This document shows positions 4,583-50,063 of a stretch of 50,063 nt of DNA, piece by piece (the first letter of the stretch is position 1; each line of letters starts with the position of its first letter). The translations under genes and the position numbers were made by a program. The notes under the pieces are model-generated. The model did not search any database, was not told the origin of the DNA, and saw only the letters and a program-made list of their open reading frames with translations. The stretch lies in the IMG/VR virus record IMGVR_UViG_3300037245_001177, positions 1 through 50,063 of that record, one strand, 5' to 3'. This DNA is from a virus.

Positions 4583-6844
4583 ATGAAAAAAATATTTTTA
4601 TTAGTAGCGTTATTTATAAGTACTTTAACCTTTGGGCAAATAAGTACTAAAATATCAGCTCCAAATACAGCGAGTATAAACGATAGTGTTGTGATGGTTG
4701 GTAGTGATAAAAGGCTTACTCATTTAACTGTAGGAGAATTATCAAAAAGAGTTTTAGCTGATATAGAATCAGTCACTTTAGATACTATTAAATTTAACGA
4801 TGGTGGTTTTATAGAGTGGAATGGTGGTGAATATACAATAGATGTTGAAACTGGATTAGGAGCTACTATACAGGTTGGCCAAGAAACATTAATGCTTTAC
4901 TTTAACGATACAGGTATAACAATACCTAATGGAACAGTATTGCATCCGAAATCAGGCACATCTATAATGGGTGTTATAGTACCAACGCCAGAATTAGCAG
5001 ATGCCTCCCTTCACGAAACAAGCGAAGGTACTTTATCAATAGCAACACACGATATTTTAAACGGGGAATTAGGATTTTCTACTAGATTTGGAAAGGTTAG
5101 AGATTTAGATACGAGCTTATTAATACCCGGTTCAACTATATGGTTATCAGCAACAATACCAGGTACATTTACAAATAGTAAACCTGAATTTCCAAACTAC
5201 TCAATTTCATTAGGAGGGGTTTTAAATGCTGCGACAGCACCAGATGGAGAGATTTTTTGTACCATAACTAGAACCATAGAAGATGTTTTTAATAATTTTT
5301 GGAACGGTATATTTTTAGAAACTTTTAAATTTAATATAACTAGCGATGGAGCTATTATTACTGGTAGTTTATTACCATCTAACGGTCATCCTGATATGAC
5401 GATGAATTTTAGTGATGGCTTTACCACTTTAGATACATCTCCAGCAGTTACCATAGTTTTAACAGCGGGAACAGATATTAATCCACAATTAAATTATATT
5501 TATATTCCAAAATCAACAAAAGTATTAACTGTATCAACCTCTGGATTTCCAACAGAGGAACATATAAAAGTTTCAACATCAGTTTTAAGAAGTGCTACAG
5601 CAACTCAAACAGATGGAGCTTTAAGGAATCAGAATCATAATGACCACTTAGCTAGTACAATAACATTCCAAGGACATTTACCTCATATAACTGAAAGAAT
5701 GAGGCAAGACCCTTCTAAATGGGATTCAGGAGTAGCGACAACTGTAACAATAATTGACGCTTCAACTCCTGATGATGTTTTTGTGTCTACAACAGGTGGT
5801 AAAATATACCAAATTCATAAACAAGATTTTCCAGTTTTAGACACTCAAACAGGAGATGAAATTCACGTTGTAAATAATCTTGCTACACCATATATTGAAA
5901 TTTCTAATCTAAATACTCAAATATTAGATGCTACAGGTACAACATTAAATAATACAAGTTTTAGTTTTGTTCTTTGGGGTGTAATTAATAGTTCAGGAGA
6001 TCCATCTCATTTAATGTTAAATTTACCTACTGATGCTTATGCTTTTGCAAGCCCACAAAATGCCGTTAATGATGCTTTAAATTATTCAGTTTATACAATT
6101 CCAAAAGCATTTGAGGGTGTAGGTTTTTTAATATCAAGATTTACATTTACATATAAAAATGATGAATGGGTTTTATTTGACACAACAGATTTAAGAGGTA
6201 CAATACCAAATACGACTGCTGGAGGTGGTATTGGAGGTGTGGGAGTTACTGAGTTTACAACTTTAACAGATACACCGAATTCATATATTGGAGAAGGTTT
6301 AAAAATGGTTCGTGTTGGTAGTGGAGAAACTGCTTTAGAGTTTTCAGATGATTATGTTACGAATACGACTACTCAAACTATTAGTGGAGAGAAAACATTT
6401 GATAGCCAAACCATATTTGACGCAGATTTAACTATCAATCTGAATAGATTATTCAATTCTGTTGGTGATGAGTTATTGTTACCACAAGGACAAGATGGAA
6501 GGATAGCTTTAACTTCTGATATACCATCAGGGGAATTTGTAGGAGTAGCAGAATTAAAAGACGAACTAAAAGCTGAATTTGAAATTACAGGAACAGATGT
6601 AGATTTTGATTTAGGAATACAAGGATATAAAACATTAGTTGGAAATACAACTTTAACATTTAGTAATTATTTTGTAGGAAAAATAATTAGTTTAGTTATA
6701 GATGGAGATTATACTTTAACTTTGCCAGCAGGAGTTGATGTTGGGGATTTAGCAAATTACGATGGTACTAAAACCAATTATATACAAGTGTATTGTGCCG
6801 ATGCAATAACACCAGTTTTCTTAACATTTTTAACCGCAAAATAA
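4583..6844 (+). CDS. Large exported phage protein, fibre-like, with Sec signal peptide
   Basis: A 753-residue protein with a clear type I signal peptide (MKKIFLLVALFISTLTFGQ, cleavage after FGQ as is common in flavobacteria). The body has fibre features: an adapter-like N-terminus (ISAPNTASINDSVVMVGSDKRLTHLTVGEL), beta-rich middle parts, a glycine-rich hinge near residue 545, and a C-terminal stretch similar to the ends of other phage fibre or decoration subunits (LTFSNYFVGKIISLVIDGDY). A signal peptide is odd on a virion protein, which would normally assemble in the cytoplasm. It may work in the periplasm or at the host surface, or be exported before joining the particle. Confidence 0.55.
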   Translation: MKKIFLLVALFISTLTFGQISTKISAPNTASINDSVVMVGSDKRLTHLTVGELSKRVLADIESVTLDTIKFNDGGFIEWNGGEYTIDVETGLGATIQVGQETLMLYFNDTGITIPNGTVLHPKSGTSIMGVIVPTPELADASLHETSEGTLSIATHDILNGELGFSTRFGKVRDLDTSLLIPGSTIWLSATIPGTFTNSKPEFPNYSISLGGVLNAATAPDGEIFCTITRTIEDVFNNFWNGIFLETFKFNITSDGAIITGSLLPSNGHPDMTMNFSDGFTTLDTSPAVTIVLTAGTDINPQLNYIYIPKSTKVLTVSTSGFPTEEHIKVSTSVLRSATATQTDGALRNQNHNDHLASTITFQGHLPHITERMRQDPSKWDSGVATTVTIIDASTPDDVFVSTTGGKIYQIHKQDFPVLDTQTGDEIHVVNNLATPYIEISNLNTQILDATGTTLNNTSFSFVLWGVINSSGDPSHLMLNLPTDAYAFASPQNAVNDALNYSVYTIPKAFEGVGFLISRFTFTYKNDEWVLFDTTDLRGTIPNTTAGGGIGGVGVTEFTTLTDTPNSYIGEGLKMVRVGSGETALEFSDDYVTNTTTQTISGEKTFDSQTIFDADLTINLNRLFNSVGDELLLPQGQDGRIALTSDIPSGEFVGVAELKDELKAEFEITGTDVDFDLGIQGYKTLVGNTTLTFSNYFVGKIISLVIDGDYTLTLPAGVDVGDLANYDGTKTNYIQVYCADAITPVFLTFLTAK

Positions 6845-10386: not shown

Positions 10387-11808
10387 TTAAAAAGGGCTAT
10401 CACCATCATTCGGATCTTGTTTAAACTCATTTACATCAAAATCGTCTGGGTGAGTATAATGTGAATCAATATCTGAGAATAAAGTATATTTACCTTCAAA
10501 CTTCATTCTAGCTTTTATTAATGCACCATTTCTATTTTTAGCAACAATACATTCGGCCTCTCCAATACAATTAGAATGTTCGTCATCATCCCATTCAGTA
10601 ATACCATAATATTCAGGTCTGTATAAAAACTCTACAACATCAGCATCTTGCTCAATGGCTCCGGATTCTCTTAAATCAGAAAGTAAAGGTCTTTTACTAC
10701 CACCTCTTGTTTCTACACCTCTTGAAAGTTGAGATAGTGCTACAACTGGTATATTTAATTCCTTTGCAACTAATTTTAAACCTCTTGATATTTTAGAAAT
10801 TTCTTGTTCTCTATTTCCACCTTTACCACTAGAAGTCATTAATTGCAAATAATCTACAATAATAAATTTTATGTTATGTTTGCTTTTTAATCTCTTTGCT
10901 TTTACTTGAAATTGCTCAATAGTTAAATTAGCAGTATCATCAATATAGAATGGTAGTTTTGTTAATTCACTTCTTTTATATTCAATTTGCCTTAAATCTT
11001 CTTCACTAAGGCCGTGAACGTTAAATTTCTGATTATCAATTCTACATTCCATTGAAATAATACGAGATGCAAGTTGCTCTTTACTCATTTCAAGACTAAA
11101 AAATGCAGTAGGATATCCTTCTCTTGCAGCAAATAAACCTTTAGAAACAGCAAATGCAGTTTTACCCATTCCTGGCCTTGCAGCTAAAATAATTAATTCA
11201 GAATTTCTCCAACCACCAGTAGCATCAGTTAGTTTTTTAATTGGAGTACTAATACCAGGTTTAATTTCTTTGTTGAATATTTTTTTACCTCTTTCTAAAA
11301 CACCATCAATAATTGAAGAAAAAGTACTTTCCTGTTTTTTAATAGCAGATTCAGAAACATTATTTAATTCACCATGAGCTTTATCAAGTACATCAAAAAC
11401 ATCTGTAGTTTCATCATAACTACTTTCAATAATTTTGGAACCACTTACAATTAAACATCTTTTAATATGTTTTTCGAGTATAATTCTACTATGCCTTTCA
11501 ATATGAGCAGAAGATGCAACTACTTGCGACAATTGCATAATGTAAAAATCACCACCTACAGTTTCTAAATTTCCTTGATCTCTTAATAAATTTGCTACAG
11601 TTAAAATATCTACATCACCAGAAGTTCTATAAATTTCTAAGATGGCACCATAAATTAATTTGTGAGGTTCTTTATAGAACATTTCAGCTTCTAAAAACTC
11701 AATTTCTACTATTGATCTTTTATCAATTAATAAGGCTCCTAAAACAGCCTCTTCTAAATCTGTAGCTTGAGGTGGTATTTTCCCTTTTTCTAAATAGTTT
11801 GTTTTCAT
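10387..11808 (-). CDS. dnaB: Replicative DNA helicase, DnaB family
   Basis: 473 residues, the usual length for DnaB. The N-terminal domain (residues 1-150, PPQATDLEEAVLGALL) is followed by the RecA-like motor. Walker A is RPGMGKTA (211-218), FFSLEMS lies at 236-242, Walker B is IIVDY (316-320), and the arginine-finger region is LSDLRESGAIEQDADVVEFLYRPEYY. It unwinds DNA at the phage fork and works with the primase (here presumably from the host). It is last in the minus-strand operon. Its start overlaps the stop of the replication organiser gene, suggesting coupled production. Confidence 0.95.
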   Translation of the reverse strand: MKTNYLEKGKIPPQATDLEEAVLGALLIDKRSIVEIEFLEAEMFYKEPHKLIYGAILEIYRTSGDVDILTVANLLRDQGNLETVGGDFYIMQLSQVVASSAHIERHSRIILEKHIKRCLIVSGSKIIESSYDETTDVFDVLDKAHGELNNVSESAIKKQESTFSSIIDGVLERGKKIFNKEIKPGISTPIKKLTDATGGWRNSELIILAARPGMGKTAFAVSKGLFAAREGYPTAFFSLEMSKEQLASRIISMECRIDNQKFNVHGLSEEDLRQIEYKRSELTKLPFYIDDTANLTIEQFQVKAKRLKSKHNIKFIIVDYLQLMTSSGKGGNREQEISKISRGLKLVAKELNIPVVALSQLSRGVETRGGSKRPLLSDLRESGAIEQDADVVEFLYRPEYYGITEWDDDEHSNCIGEAECIVAKNRNGALIKARMKFEGKYTLFSDIDSHYTHPDDFDVNEFKQDPNDGDSPF

Positions 11809-12419
11809 TATACTAATCTTATATTATCGGTTGTATTATTTTGTTCTGGTCCTTTAAATTTTGTTTTATTTTTCTTCCAAGTTGCGAGTCTCCTGGAAAT
11901 TCCGAAACTTTTTTCTTTCTCCCATCTCATTTTAATATCTTTTGGTCCGTGTTCGGTCCAATACTGGTAGAATTCATTTAGAATAATTTTTCCAAATTTA
12001 TCTAGGAATGGCACCAACAACTCTTTAAAATCTGATTTCCTTTCTTCGATTGGTTTTTTCTTTTCATCTACAATTGCATCTCCTTGAGATTGGTAATGGT
12101 CGTATTTACAAATAGAAATTATAGTATTTGATTGGTCTGAACTTACTTCAATCATTTTATCATCTTCTAATATTTTTAAAAACCTTCGGACCTTAGATTT
12201 ATTCCAATCCCATTGAAAAGCCAAATCTCCAAGTGTAGTAACTGTTTCACCTCTACCAATTTTTATAACATCGGTTTTCTTTTTCATTTTAGCTTCAACC
12301 GGATTTGATCTTAGAAGAATATCAATCCAAGCCTCAGCTTTAGAATATACTCTGCTTTCGGTCCAAAGCCAATGTTTTTGGAGTTTTCGATGTAAGGATA
12401 TCCACCCTATTCCGTTCAT
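11808..12419 (-). CDS. Replication organiser / helicase loader-like wHTH protein
   Basis: 203 residues. The N-terminus (WISLHRKLQKHWLW, KAEAWIDILLRSNP) and the region GETVTTLGDLAFQWDWNKSKVRRFLKILEDDKMI form a winged helix-turn-helix like those of phage replisome organisers and DnaD-like primosome proteins. The C-terminal part (LLVPFLDKFGK, FYQYWTEHGPKDIKMRWEKEKSFGISRRLATW) is the typical basic tail for binding helicase and single-stranded DNA. Direct pairing with dnaB supports a role in loading it at the origin. The start at 12419 is the only good ATG. Confidence 0.75.
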   Translation of the reverse strand: MNGIGWISLHRKLQKHWLWTESRVYSKAEAWIDILLRSNPVEAKMKKKTDVIKIGRGETVTTLGDLAFQWDWNKSKVRRFLKILEDDKMIEVSSDQSNTIISICKYDHYQSQGDAIVDEKKKPIEERKSDFKELLVPFLDKFGKIILNEFYQYWTEHGPKDIKMRWEKEKSFGISRRLATWKKNKTKFKGPEQNNTTDNIRLV

Positions 12420-18051: not shown

Positions 18052-18118
18052 TTTTGGTTTGGCACTAGTATTAATTGATTATCAGATAGTTAAGTGTTTT
18101 AGTGTTTTGTTTATCAGT

Positions 18119-18229
18119 AGTTGGTAGTGATATTAGCATATTACGTATTGTCCTAAAAAGTCATTAATAACCTCAACTACATAATTTTTGCTAAATGCTA
18201 GGAAAACTTACCTAAAACCTCAACCAACT
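18119..18229 (-). repeat. Intergenic repeat element E1
   Basis: A 111-bp non-coding element between the PAPS-reductase-like gene (stop 40 bp before) and the 91-residue gene. Its ends are complementary (AGTTGGT/ACCAACT). Read on the minus strand it carries TTGAGG just inside the first end, a short hairpin TAGG...CCTA, a second GTTGAGGTTATT, and UAGCAU/AUGCUA pairing. It is identical to E2 at 109 of 111 positions. Confidence 0.85.
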
Positions 18230-18255
18230 CTCAATAAACGGTATTAAAAAATTAT

Positions 18256-19709: not shown

Positions 19710-19734
19710 AATATTTAATTGTTTTATTCGTGCT

Positions 19735-19845
19735 AGTTGGTAGTGATATTAGCATATTACGTATTGTCCTAAAAAGTTATTAATAACCTCAACTACATAA
19801 TTTTTGTTAAATGCTAGGAAAACTTACCTAAAACCTCAACCAACT
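19735..19845 (-). repeat. Intergenic repeat element E2
   Basis: 111 bp, same ends and same internal motifs as E1, two substitutions apart. It starts 40 bp after the methyltransferase stop and ends 26 bp before the next start. In this copy the central block is a perfect 12-bp palindrome (GTTATTAATAAC). Confidence 0.85.
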
Positions 19846-19884
19846 CTGCGTATAAGTGATATAAATTAGCCTTTACGCTTTGTT

Positions 19885-21202: not shown

Positions 21203-21315
21203 AGTTGGTAGTGAGTTGGGCAGGCTTTCTATATAAACAGTAACTGTTGTTTAATTCTTTAGTTTACCCTCATTTATTTATCAAGTAATATATCTCCCAA
21301 AGCCCACAACCAACT
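21203..21315 (-). repeat. Intergenic repeat element E3
   Basis: 113 bp, ends AGTTGGT/ACCAACT. The inside has diverged from E1/E2, but pairing is retained by other means: on the minus strand GGCTTT near the first end pairs with AAAGCC near the second. TGAGG is present once (TGAGGGTAAAC). It starts 21 bp after one gene and ends 51 bp before the next. Confidence 0.75.
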
Positions 21316-21335
21316 CTCAATAAAAGTATAACTTA

Positions 21336-21845: not shown

Positions 21846-21893
21846 ATTTATTTAATTTAGTGTTTATTTAACGTTTCGTGTGTTATACTTGTA

Positions 21894-22007
21894 AGTTGGT
21901 AGTGATATTAGCGTATTAGTTTTAATGTCCTAAGTAATCAGCAATAACCTCAACTGTTGTAATGCTTGTTGTAAGCCTTTTTAGACTACCTAAGACCTCT
22001 ACCAACT
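21894..22007 (-). repeat. Intergenic repeat element E5
   Basis: 114 bp, ends AGTTGGT/ACCAACT. On the minus strand: GAGGTCTTAGG, hairpin GTAGTC...GGCTTAC, GTTGAGGTTATT, TTAGGACA, then GCTAATATCACT as in E1. Thus the conserved motifs stay while the stems vary. It starts 32 bp after one stop and ends 49 bp before the next start. Confidence 0.85.
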
Positions 22008-22034
22008 CCCAATATAATTGATAATTTAAAAACT

Positions 22035-23995: not shown

Positions 23996-24137
23996 AATGT
24001 GTATATATTTATATATTTGCCTACTCTATTAGCTTTTCGGCTTCCGCTTAATATCTTGGTATCACAATTTGTGATGTCATTTTAATTTTTCAAATTAATC
24101 ACCTTCGCTCTTTTTTTATTGCATCGGTTATACTGTT

Positions 24138-27117: not shown

Positions 27118-27645
27118 ATGGCAGCTCCTAAAGGAAATGAATACTATAAAATAAGAACCATTGATGGTAAATGTGCAAAGCTAACACCACTAGAACTAAA
27201 GGAAGGTGCAAATAATTATTTTCAATGGTGTATAGATAATCCGCTACAGGAAGAAACAATTGTAAAGTTTAAAGAAACATACGAACGTGTAAACGTCTCA
27301 AAGCTAAGGGTTTATACAATAAGTGGCCTTTGTAACTACCTCGATATATGTGTGAGTACTTTTCAAAACTACGAGCAAAGGAAAGACTATGTACCATTCG
27401 CTACACGTATACGACAAACAATATACAATCAAAAATTTGAGGGTGCCTCTGGTGGATTCTTCAAAGAAAACATTATAATTAGGGACCTGGGGATAAAAGA
27501 CACGCAAGAGATCGCTTATAGCAACCAATTGAAGCAATTGAGCACTCAGGAAGTTAAGCAGCTCAAAGAAGTCTTTAATACGGATTATGGCCAAGTACCT
27601 CAGCAGAAAATAATAGACATTGACTTTGAAGAAATTACAGAATAA
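27118..27645 (+). CDS. terS: Terminase small subunit (gp3-like DNA-packaging protein)
   Basis: 175 residues. AAPKGNEYYKIRTIDGK, ANNYFQWCIDNP, VSKLRVYTISGLCNYLDICVSTFQNYEQRKD and YNQKFEGASGGFFKENIIIRDLGI match the gp3-type small terminase of Bacteroidota and other phages. It recognises the packaging site on concatemeric DNA and hands it to TerL. It is unusual in lying 5.7 kb from terL, across an oppositely directed operon. The repeat-in-palindrome right after its stop could be its binding site. Confidence 0.82.
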   Translation: MAAPKGNEYYKIRTIDGKCAKLTPLELKEGANNYFQWCIDNPLQEETIVKFKETYERVNVSKLRVYTISGLCNYLDICVSTFQNYEQRKDYVPFATRIRQTIYNQKFEGASGGFFKENIIIRDLGIKDTQEIAYSNQLKQLSTQEVKQLKEVFNTDYGQVPQQKIIDIDFEEITE

Positions 27646-27646
27646 A

Positions 27647-27758
27647 AAATGTACATGGATGCAACATTCGACACACCTACCGACACACCTCAAGTCTTGA
27701 TATGAAAGGGCTACAGCGTTTTGCCGACACACCAACCGACACACCTCCATGTACATTT
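27647..27758. repeat. CGACACACC repeats inside a 13-bp perfect inverted repeat
   Basis: AAATGTACATGGA (27647-27659) and TCCATGTACATTT (27746-27758) are perfect inverted copies. Inside lie two 22-bp direct repeats (27669-27690 and 27725-27746), one base apart from each other, each with CGACACACC twice. The order is too regular for chance and does not encode a protein in the plus strand after the TerS stop. A packaging (pac/cos) site or a replication origin is plausible. Confidence 0.75.
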
Positions 27759-27913
27759 CGTTGATTTTAATCATTTTTACATATAGTTTTTTACAATTAT
27801 ACAGTTATGAACAATCATTTAAGAAATTGTTAATAAGTTTATTATAGTATTATTCTACCCTAAAGTAGTACTAAATTACCTTTATTCGATATTGCGATAT
27901 GGAATACAAAAAA

Positions 27914-28215: not shown

Positions 28216-28773
28216 CTATAAATTTAATACTTCTTTTATTTCTTCTTCGGCCTGTTCTCTTAAGGTGTCTATATCTACATCATCAAAAATATCACCGGTT
28301 TCGTGTTCAGCGTGTATAATCTCATCAAATAACTCTATTTTGTATTGAAGAGTAGCACCGTGTACATTCTCAATTTTATCTAATAATTCCTGTAATGTTT
28401 CAAAAGCTCCCATTCCTTCAAAAGCTTCAACCATTTTATCATATCTACATTTTAAAACAGCCTCTTTAATATCTTCAACATCTATGTGTAAATAATTTGT
28501 AGACGTTGCAAACTGATCTAATACAGAATAGTCATATATTCCATCCTCATTATCCTTAAAGCCTTCATAATCAATTAAACCGTGCTCATTTAGCTTTTGT
28601 TCAATAGGTTCTTTCAGGGCTGCAAAAGCTGCTAAGAATTTAAACTCATTCATTCTGTGAGTCACTGAGTGCATCCAAAAATTTAAGATGATACTTTCAG
28701 TGTCATACTCGCAAAAGTCATCTATTTCGACACCCATTAAAGGAACTGGTTTATGTAGTAGTGTAGTATTCAT
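28216..28773 (-). CDS. Hypothetical acidic helical protein
   Basis: 185 residues. Helical throughout, acidic at the C-terminus (EHETGDIFDDVDIDTLREQAEEEIKEV). LLHKPVPLMGVEIDDFCEYD at the start is not a known motif. It is the longest gene of the minus-strand operon 27.9-29.5 kb. An acidic early protein of this size could be an inhibitor of a host factor; that is only a guess. Confidence 0.55.
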   Translation of the reverse strand: MNTTLLHKPVPLMGVEIDDFCEYDTESIILNFWMHSVTHRMNEFKFLAAFAALKEPIEQKLNEHGLIDYEGFKDNEDGIYDYSVLDQFATSTNYLHIDVEDIKEAVLKCRYDKMVEAFEGMGAFETLQELLDKIENVHGATLQYKIELFDEIIHAEHETGDIFDDVDIDTLREQAEEEIKEVLNL

Positions 28774-49516: not shown

Positions 49517-50063
49517 TGGGATTTTTAACATGGGCAGATAAGGTTGGTATTATACCAAAAAAAATAAGAATTAATCAATGGCAAGATGATGATGCTAATG
49601 AGACAAAAACTGCTGTAAATGATAATGATACTAGGATAGGTGTTTTAGAGCCTAAAGTAACTTCGCTTGAAACTGGTCAAACAGGGGGGTTAATATCGTT
49701 CACTACAAAAGCTATATTAGATGCACATACAGATGCTGGAAATAATGATAGTTATAAAGTAACTAATGATAGTACAAGCTCAAACAATGGTTATTATCAT
49801 TGGAGTGGTTCAGCTTATGTTAAAGATGCAAGTTTAGCAAATGGCGAAGTTGCAGAAGGTGATCCTGATGCTGTTGAGGGTGGTAAAATATTTGATAATA
49901 ATAAAATACAGTCTTTATTTGATATAAATAGAGGTTATGTAACTATTGAAAACAATGTTATTACTTTAGGTGTTGGTAATCATTTTTTTATAGACAAAAC
50001 AAATACAACAGTTTCGACTAATGTAGCTATTGAGGAAGTTCATACTTTAGGACATAATGAAAG
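49516..50063 (+). CDS. Tail fibre / receptor-binding protein with GDPD domain (5' part)
   Basis: The 5' part of the gene that carries on at base 2. The start overlaps the stop of the FN3 gene (TAATG). The first residues MGFLTWADKVGIIPKKIRINQWQDDD and a helical NDNDTRIGVLEPKVTSLETG are a typical fibre adapter. The repeated NVITLGVGN module begins near 49930. Full length 821 residues. The window holds 182 codons of this part, the last 53 of which are repeated at the window start. Confidence 0.85.
   Translation, partial: MGFLTWADKVGIIPKKIRINQWQDDDANETKTAVNDNDTRIGVLEPKVTSLETGQTGGLISFTTKAILDAHTDAGNNDSYKVTNDSTSSNNGYYHWSGSAYVKDASLANGEVAEGDPDAVEGGKIFDNNKIQSLFDINRGYVTIENNVITLGVGNHFFIDKTNTTVSTNVAIEEVHTLGHNE
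49905..50063. repeat. End overlap, right copy (circular map)
   Basis: The second copy of bases 1-159, with A in place of C at position 33 of the repeat (49937). The window therefore covers the whole genome once with 159 bases to spare. Confidence 0.95.

Follow-up and report, generated by a model that had tools for sequence, protein, structure and literature searches.

What does a compact cluster of repeats, framed by a perfect inverted repeat and located directly behind a small terminase gene, do for the phage that carries it? The first-pass annotation of this DNA had offered two answers, a packaging site or an origin of replication. We favor the latter, at a probability of roughly three in four: based on sequence comparisons, the 112-bp element at 27647-27758 and the AT-rich DNA on its right flank probably form a replication origin that, like oriR of Bacillus phage SPP1, is located outside the initiator gene. 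The window, that is, the whole stretch of DNA that was analyzed, is an IMG/VR record of 50,063 bases. Positions 1-159 and 49905-50063 form a 159-nt terminal repeat with one mismatch, and as the two ends share these 159 nt, the contig is read as one assembled as a circle of ~49.9 kb.

The element and its setting

The features needed for the argument are listed below in window coordinates.

27647..27659, + strand: left arm of a perfect 13-bp inverted repeat, AAATGTACATGGA
27669..27677, + strand: iteron 1, CGACACACC
27681..27689, + strand: iteron 2, CGACACACC, at a 12-bp pitch
27690..27724: central spacer of 35 nt, giving a step of 44 bp from iteron 2 to iteron 3
27725..27733, + strand: iteron 3, CGACACACC
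27737..27745, + strand: iteron 4, CGACACACC
27746..27758, - strand: right arm of the 13-bp inverted repeat
27759..27858: AT-rich flank, ~80% AT, a candidate DNA unwinding element
27118..27645, + strand: terS, a P22 gp3-like small terminase that is not thought to use the element
11808..12419, - strand: G38P/DnaD-like winged-helix initiator, the proposed binder, whose gene lacks in-gene iterons
10387..11808, - strand: DnaB-like replicative helicase, adjoining the initiator

The word CGACACACC is present four times in the 50-kb window, always on the + strand and always within the element, versus 0.02 copies expected from shuffles, and the element is the densest noncoding cluster of exact 9-mer repeats in the window. 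The shorter CGACA is found 21 times in the whole phage, with four of these copies in the element. Two direct repeats containing the word twice each had been described previously and are indeed present at 27669-27691 and 27725-27747, but they are 23 nt rather than 22 bp long and differ by one mismatch (96% identity). The repeats also stand out by composition, as had been pointed out, with a GC content of 46% in the element and ~30% in the genome, and the flank at 27759-27858 ranks in the top 1.6% of the window's 100-bp windows by AT content. The perfect 13-bp inverted repeat of the first-pass annotation was likewise confirmed, the two arms being fully complementary. In simulated genomes, a perfect 13-bp inverted repeat with a spacer of 20-120 nt arose by chance 0.65 times per genome on average, whereas the chance of the same class of repeat at one given 400-bp place was 0.0017; the arm pair is hence unlikely at a given place but not unlikely genome-wide. 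The predicted DNA folding of the element was not clearly better than that of shuffled sequences.

The element occupies the gap between two convergent genes, terS (+, ending at 27645) and a gene at 28216-28773 (-), and is located downstream of both. A single base separates the terS stop codon from the left arm, in agreement with the earlier statement that the element directly follows terS. Repeats framed by an inverted repeat between convergent genes could be bound by a phage regulator, in which case the element would be an operator or regulatory site for terS or for the convergent early genes. However, it is found at no gene start, and the relatives described below link the word to initiators and to no regulator, making a regulatory site a very improbable explanation. 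The cumulative GC skew reaches its minimum at ~25-30 kb, a region that includes the element, but this minimum is confounded, since gene orientation alone could produce it. Elsewhere in the window, intergenic repeats (AGTTGGTAGTGATATTAGC...CCTAAAACCTCAACCAACT; 114 nt and 98% identical in the two best copies) are found between early genes (18118-18231, 19734-19847, 21297-21324 and 21879-22016), and positions 24018-24050 (-) match the DUF805b cis-regulatory RNA of Rfam (RF02914, E 5.6e-11).

The repeat word and the initiator family

A scan of 2.9 million viral contigs of IMG/VR with the pattern CGACACACCNNNCGACACACC, which represents two copies of CGACACACC at a 12-bp pitch, yielded eight distinct contigs, with L012 and L023 being the two ends of one of them. 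In half of these (L009, L012/L023, L018 and L031), the word pair is located inside a G38P/DnaD-like initiator gene, the product of which is a winged-helix protein of phrog_2514 or phrog_186 acting as replication initiator or helicase loader; these families are also matched by the initiator of the window. In the remaining four contigs, the pair falls within other open frames (L030, L033 and L034) or is noncoding, as in the viral contig L032, where a CGACACACCAAACGACACACC pair at 2388-2408 follows a terminator-like hairpin. A later scan with the shorter core CGACACA added L167, where the repeats again fall within such an initiator gene. Translation of the word gives DTP in L009 and L012 (frame 2) and THL/TQQ in L031 (frame 1), while the word passes through all three frames in L018 and through two in L167. 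As the reading frame differs between the initiator genes, it is the DNA that is conserved and not the protein. Furthermore, among 19 initiator homologs that had not been fetched by the word, GACAC is enriched 24-fold and CGACA 16-fold in the 200 nt surrounding the point where the winged-helix domain ends, as compared to the rest of the genes.

The spacing of the repeats is shared as well. The steps between CGACACA copies are 12, 44 and 12 bp in the window and 12, 12, 45, 12 and 12 bp in L012, with a 45-bp step again in L023. In L009, all steps are 12 bp except for one of 45 bp, and in L167 they are 12, 12, 44 and 12 bp; the 44-bp step of L167 gives weaker support, as the search pattern that yielded this contig admitted only steps of 35-55 bp. 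The bipartite 44-45 bp step is absent in L018 and L031. The spacers of L009, L012 and L167 contain dyads longer than those in most shuffles, the dyad of the window spacer is no longer than 5 bp and not significant, and an AT-rich flank like that of the window was not seen at L009 or L167. The same iteron, the 12-bp pitch and the 44-45 bp step inside initiator genes of other phages lend support to the origin named in the first-pass annotation.

The word alone does not name its binder, since the core is also found beside plasmid-type Rep genes. Such genes in L015, L016, L019, L022, L024 and L020 are flanked by AAACGACACACC or TTACGACACACC iterons at ~21-bp spacing, with AAACGACACACC beside the first five, which suggests that the same core is apparently used by another type of initiator too. 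The spacer core AAGTCTTGATATGAAAGGGCTACAGCG has counterparts with 22-23 of 27 positions identical in L020 (reverse strand near 11892), where the match (22/27) adjoins CGACACACC copies, and in L158 (507-533), and the spacer has a weak plasmid match in Neisseria lactamica (87% identity across 31 nt, E ~1). We discarded DTP-like repeats in contigs from Streptomyces, Nonomuraea, Pirellulaceae and Dojkabacteria, as these repeats look like ordinary coding repeats. DNA similarity searches with the element brought up no convincing match among records of phages, plasmids or E. coli, the papers retrieved for the word were all unrelated, and a close relative sharing the out-of-gene layout was not found.

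The window encodes one initiator of the G38P/DnaD-like family, 15 kb from the element, and its gene overlaps that of the DnaB helicase by one base. Over its first 116 amino acids, the 203-aa protein shares 35% identity with SPP1 G38P. Its structural model has a confident winged-helix-like domain at approximately residues 20-110 and is poor beyond residue ~110, and a Foldseek search with the model returned ArsR- and CodY-type winged helices with weak E-values. The family to which the C-terminal part belongs is represented in phages of Cellulophaga, Flavobacterium, Riemerella and Bacteroides. No clear iterons were seen in phages LS06-2018-MD05 and 11b, which have this C-terminal part as well, and a search of viral contigs with the window initiator itself revealed no relatives. 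The initiator gene of the window has no repeats at the usual place, and the only iterons recognized in the phage are consequently those behind terS.

We hypothesize that the winged-helix initiator (11808-12419, -) binds all four CGACACACC iterons, arranged as two pairs with a 44-bp step between them, that its binding opens the AT-rich DNA at the right flank, and that it then recruits the phage DnaB helicase. The element would thus be a G38P-type iteron origin, a kind already known, but situated outside the initiator gene, in which no copy was recognized. Short direct repeats at an 11-12 bp pitch with a (C)GACA(C) core, a cognate winged-helix initiator encoded together with a replicative helicase, and an adjacent AT-rich region, which not every in-gene array has, are features of G38P/DnaD-type origins that are found in this phage. 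Repeats inside the initiator gene, which are usual but not strictly defining, SPP1 oriR being an exception, are lacking. The small number of iterons, only four, and the 13-bp arms, which have no counterpart in the in-gene arrays, count against an origin.

A second site bound by the G38P initiator is known from SPP1, where oriR is thought to stall forks and to trigger the switch to concatemer synthesis (PMC3485210). By analogy, the element could be an initiator-bound fork block or a second, late origin, with the main start of replication elsewhere. However, the phage has no other CGACA cluster of similar density, and the place at which a main origin would usually be found, the initiator gene, is free of repeats. 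As the sole such site, the element is more simply read as the origin, and a fork block or late origin seems improbable. A more far-reaching version of the origin proposal is that the origin left the initiator gene as a separate cassette bordered by the 13-bp arms and was placed at the packaging locus, where it would serve as the sole G38P-type origin and link the start of replication with packaging. We infer binding, unwinding and initiation, and equally any role of the 13-bp arms and the direction of such an evolutionary move, and regard the cassette as an unlikely scenario; if true, the locus would be a combined origin and packaging region.

terS and DNA packaging

The assignment of the upstream gene as terS in the first-pass annotation was upheld by matches to PF16677 GP3_package (E 1e-20), phrog_606 (E 1e-34) and the P22 gp3 structure 3p9a (E 1e-24). 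With the element only one base behind this gene and its two repeat pairs flanking a central segment, it could be a pac or cos-type site, with TerS bound to the repeats and TerL cutting either between them or alongside, as in the pacL-pacC-pacR arrangement of SPP1. Moreover, contig L170 has CGACACAAG repeats just upstream of an unrelated terS (phrog_51); this case is ambiguous, since these noncoding repeats (5910-5982, -) are palindromic and are located between a primase-helicase-like gene and terS. Whether relatives keep the repeats near terS had been put forward as a check, and none of eight TerS relatives has such repeats beside terS, although at only 35-47% identity their absence is not strong evidence against packaging. 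In addition, the TerS of the window is P22 gp3-like, and P22-like records annotate pac inside gene 3, whereas the element is located outside terS. That initiator genes of other phages contain this word at this spacing also argues against packaging. Among TerL relatives (80 loci, ~60% identity), neither the TerS of the window nor the iterons were found in the stretches fetched. The pac sites of SPP1 and P22 resemble the element in being near terS. However, P22 pac is contained within terS, that of SPP1 overlaps the gene 1 start (PMC6316719), and neither is known to use the word of the window. Of the two functions proposed initially, the origin is therefore supported, while a packaging site finds no support among relatives and is unlikely.

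Comparison with known initiator systems

The phages in which G38P/DnaD-like initiators were found here have Bacillus, Staphylococcus, Vibrio and Bacteroidetes hosts. In phages with such initiators, the repeats are usually located in the initiator gene and, in the cases studied, so is the origin. The variable Asp-Thr-Pro-like repeats of these proteins would then be accounted for by DNA iterons that run through a coding frame, and the window suggests that the same DNA code may work outside the gene. Origins of uncultured phages could hence be predicted from the 12-bp pitch, the 44-45 bp step and the CGACAC core.

Among the systems closest to the element are the in-gene arrays of L009, L012/L023, L018, L031 and L167, with which it shares the word CGACACA(CC) and the 12-bp pitch and, in three of them, the 44-45 bp step; however, the iterons are coding in these contigs, whereas those of the window are noncoding and 15 kb away from the gene. 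The initiators of Cellulophaga and Riemerella phages (phrog_19415 C-terminal family) share the C-terminal part of the window initiator and have 12-bp in-gene repeats, but differ in their repeat words, GATACAGT and GATACGGT, and in the N-terminal part. The likeness to Staphylococcus phage 80alpha is drawn from its reported in-gene origin: the origin appears to be embedded in its own G38P-like gene, as the mutant could not be complemented in trans (PMC5499656).

In SPP1, gp38 binds the direct repeats of oriL, located inside gene 38, and of oriR, both of which have AT-rich unwinding elements, and the helicase is loaded afterwards (PMC6316719). The in-gene repeats of SPP1 read AAACGACACGAAA, and gene 38 contains AAACGACACGA-type repeats of 11 bp, the frame of which rotates along the gene. 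An oriR-like cluster was not found in the examined stretch of the SPP1-like phage 049ML003. The exact word of SPP1 differs from that of the window, which is also distinguished by its 12-bp pitch, 44-bp step and enclosing 13-bp inverted repeat, and SPP1 keeps oriL with its 11-bp repeats inside gene 38, whereas the initiator gene of the window has none. On the other hand, oriL shares with the element direct repeats with a CGACAC-type core, an AT-rich stretch and a homologous winged-helix initiator. While the repeats were compared here with those of oriL, it is oriR that, like the element, is located outside the initiator gene.
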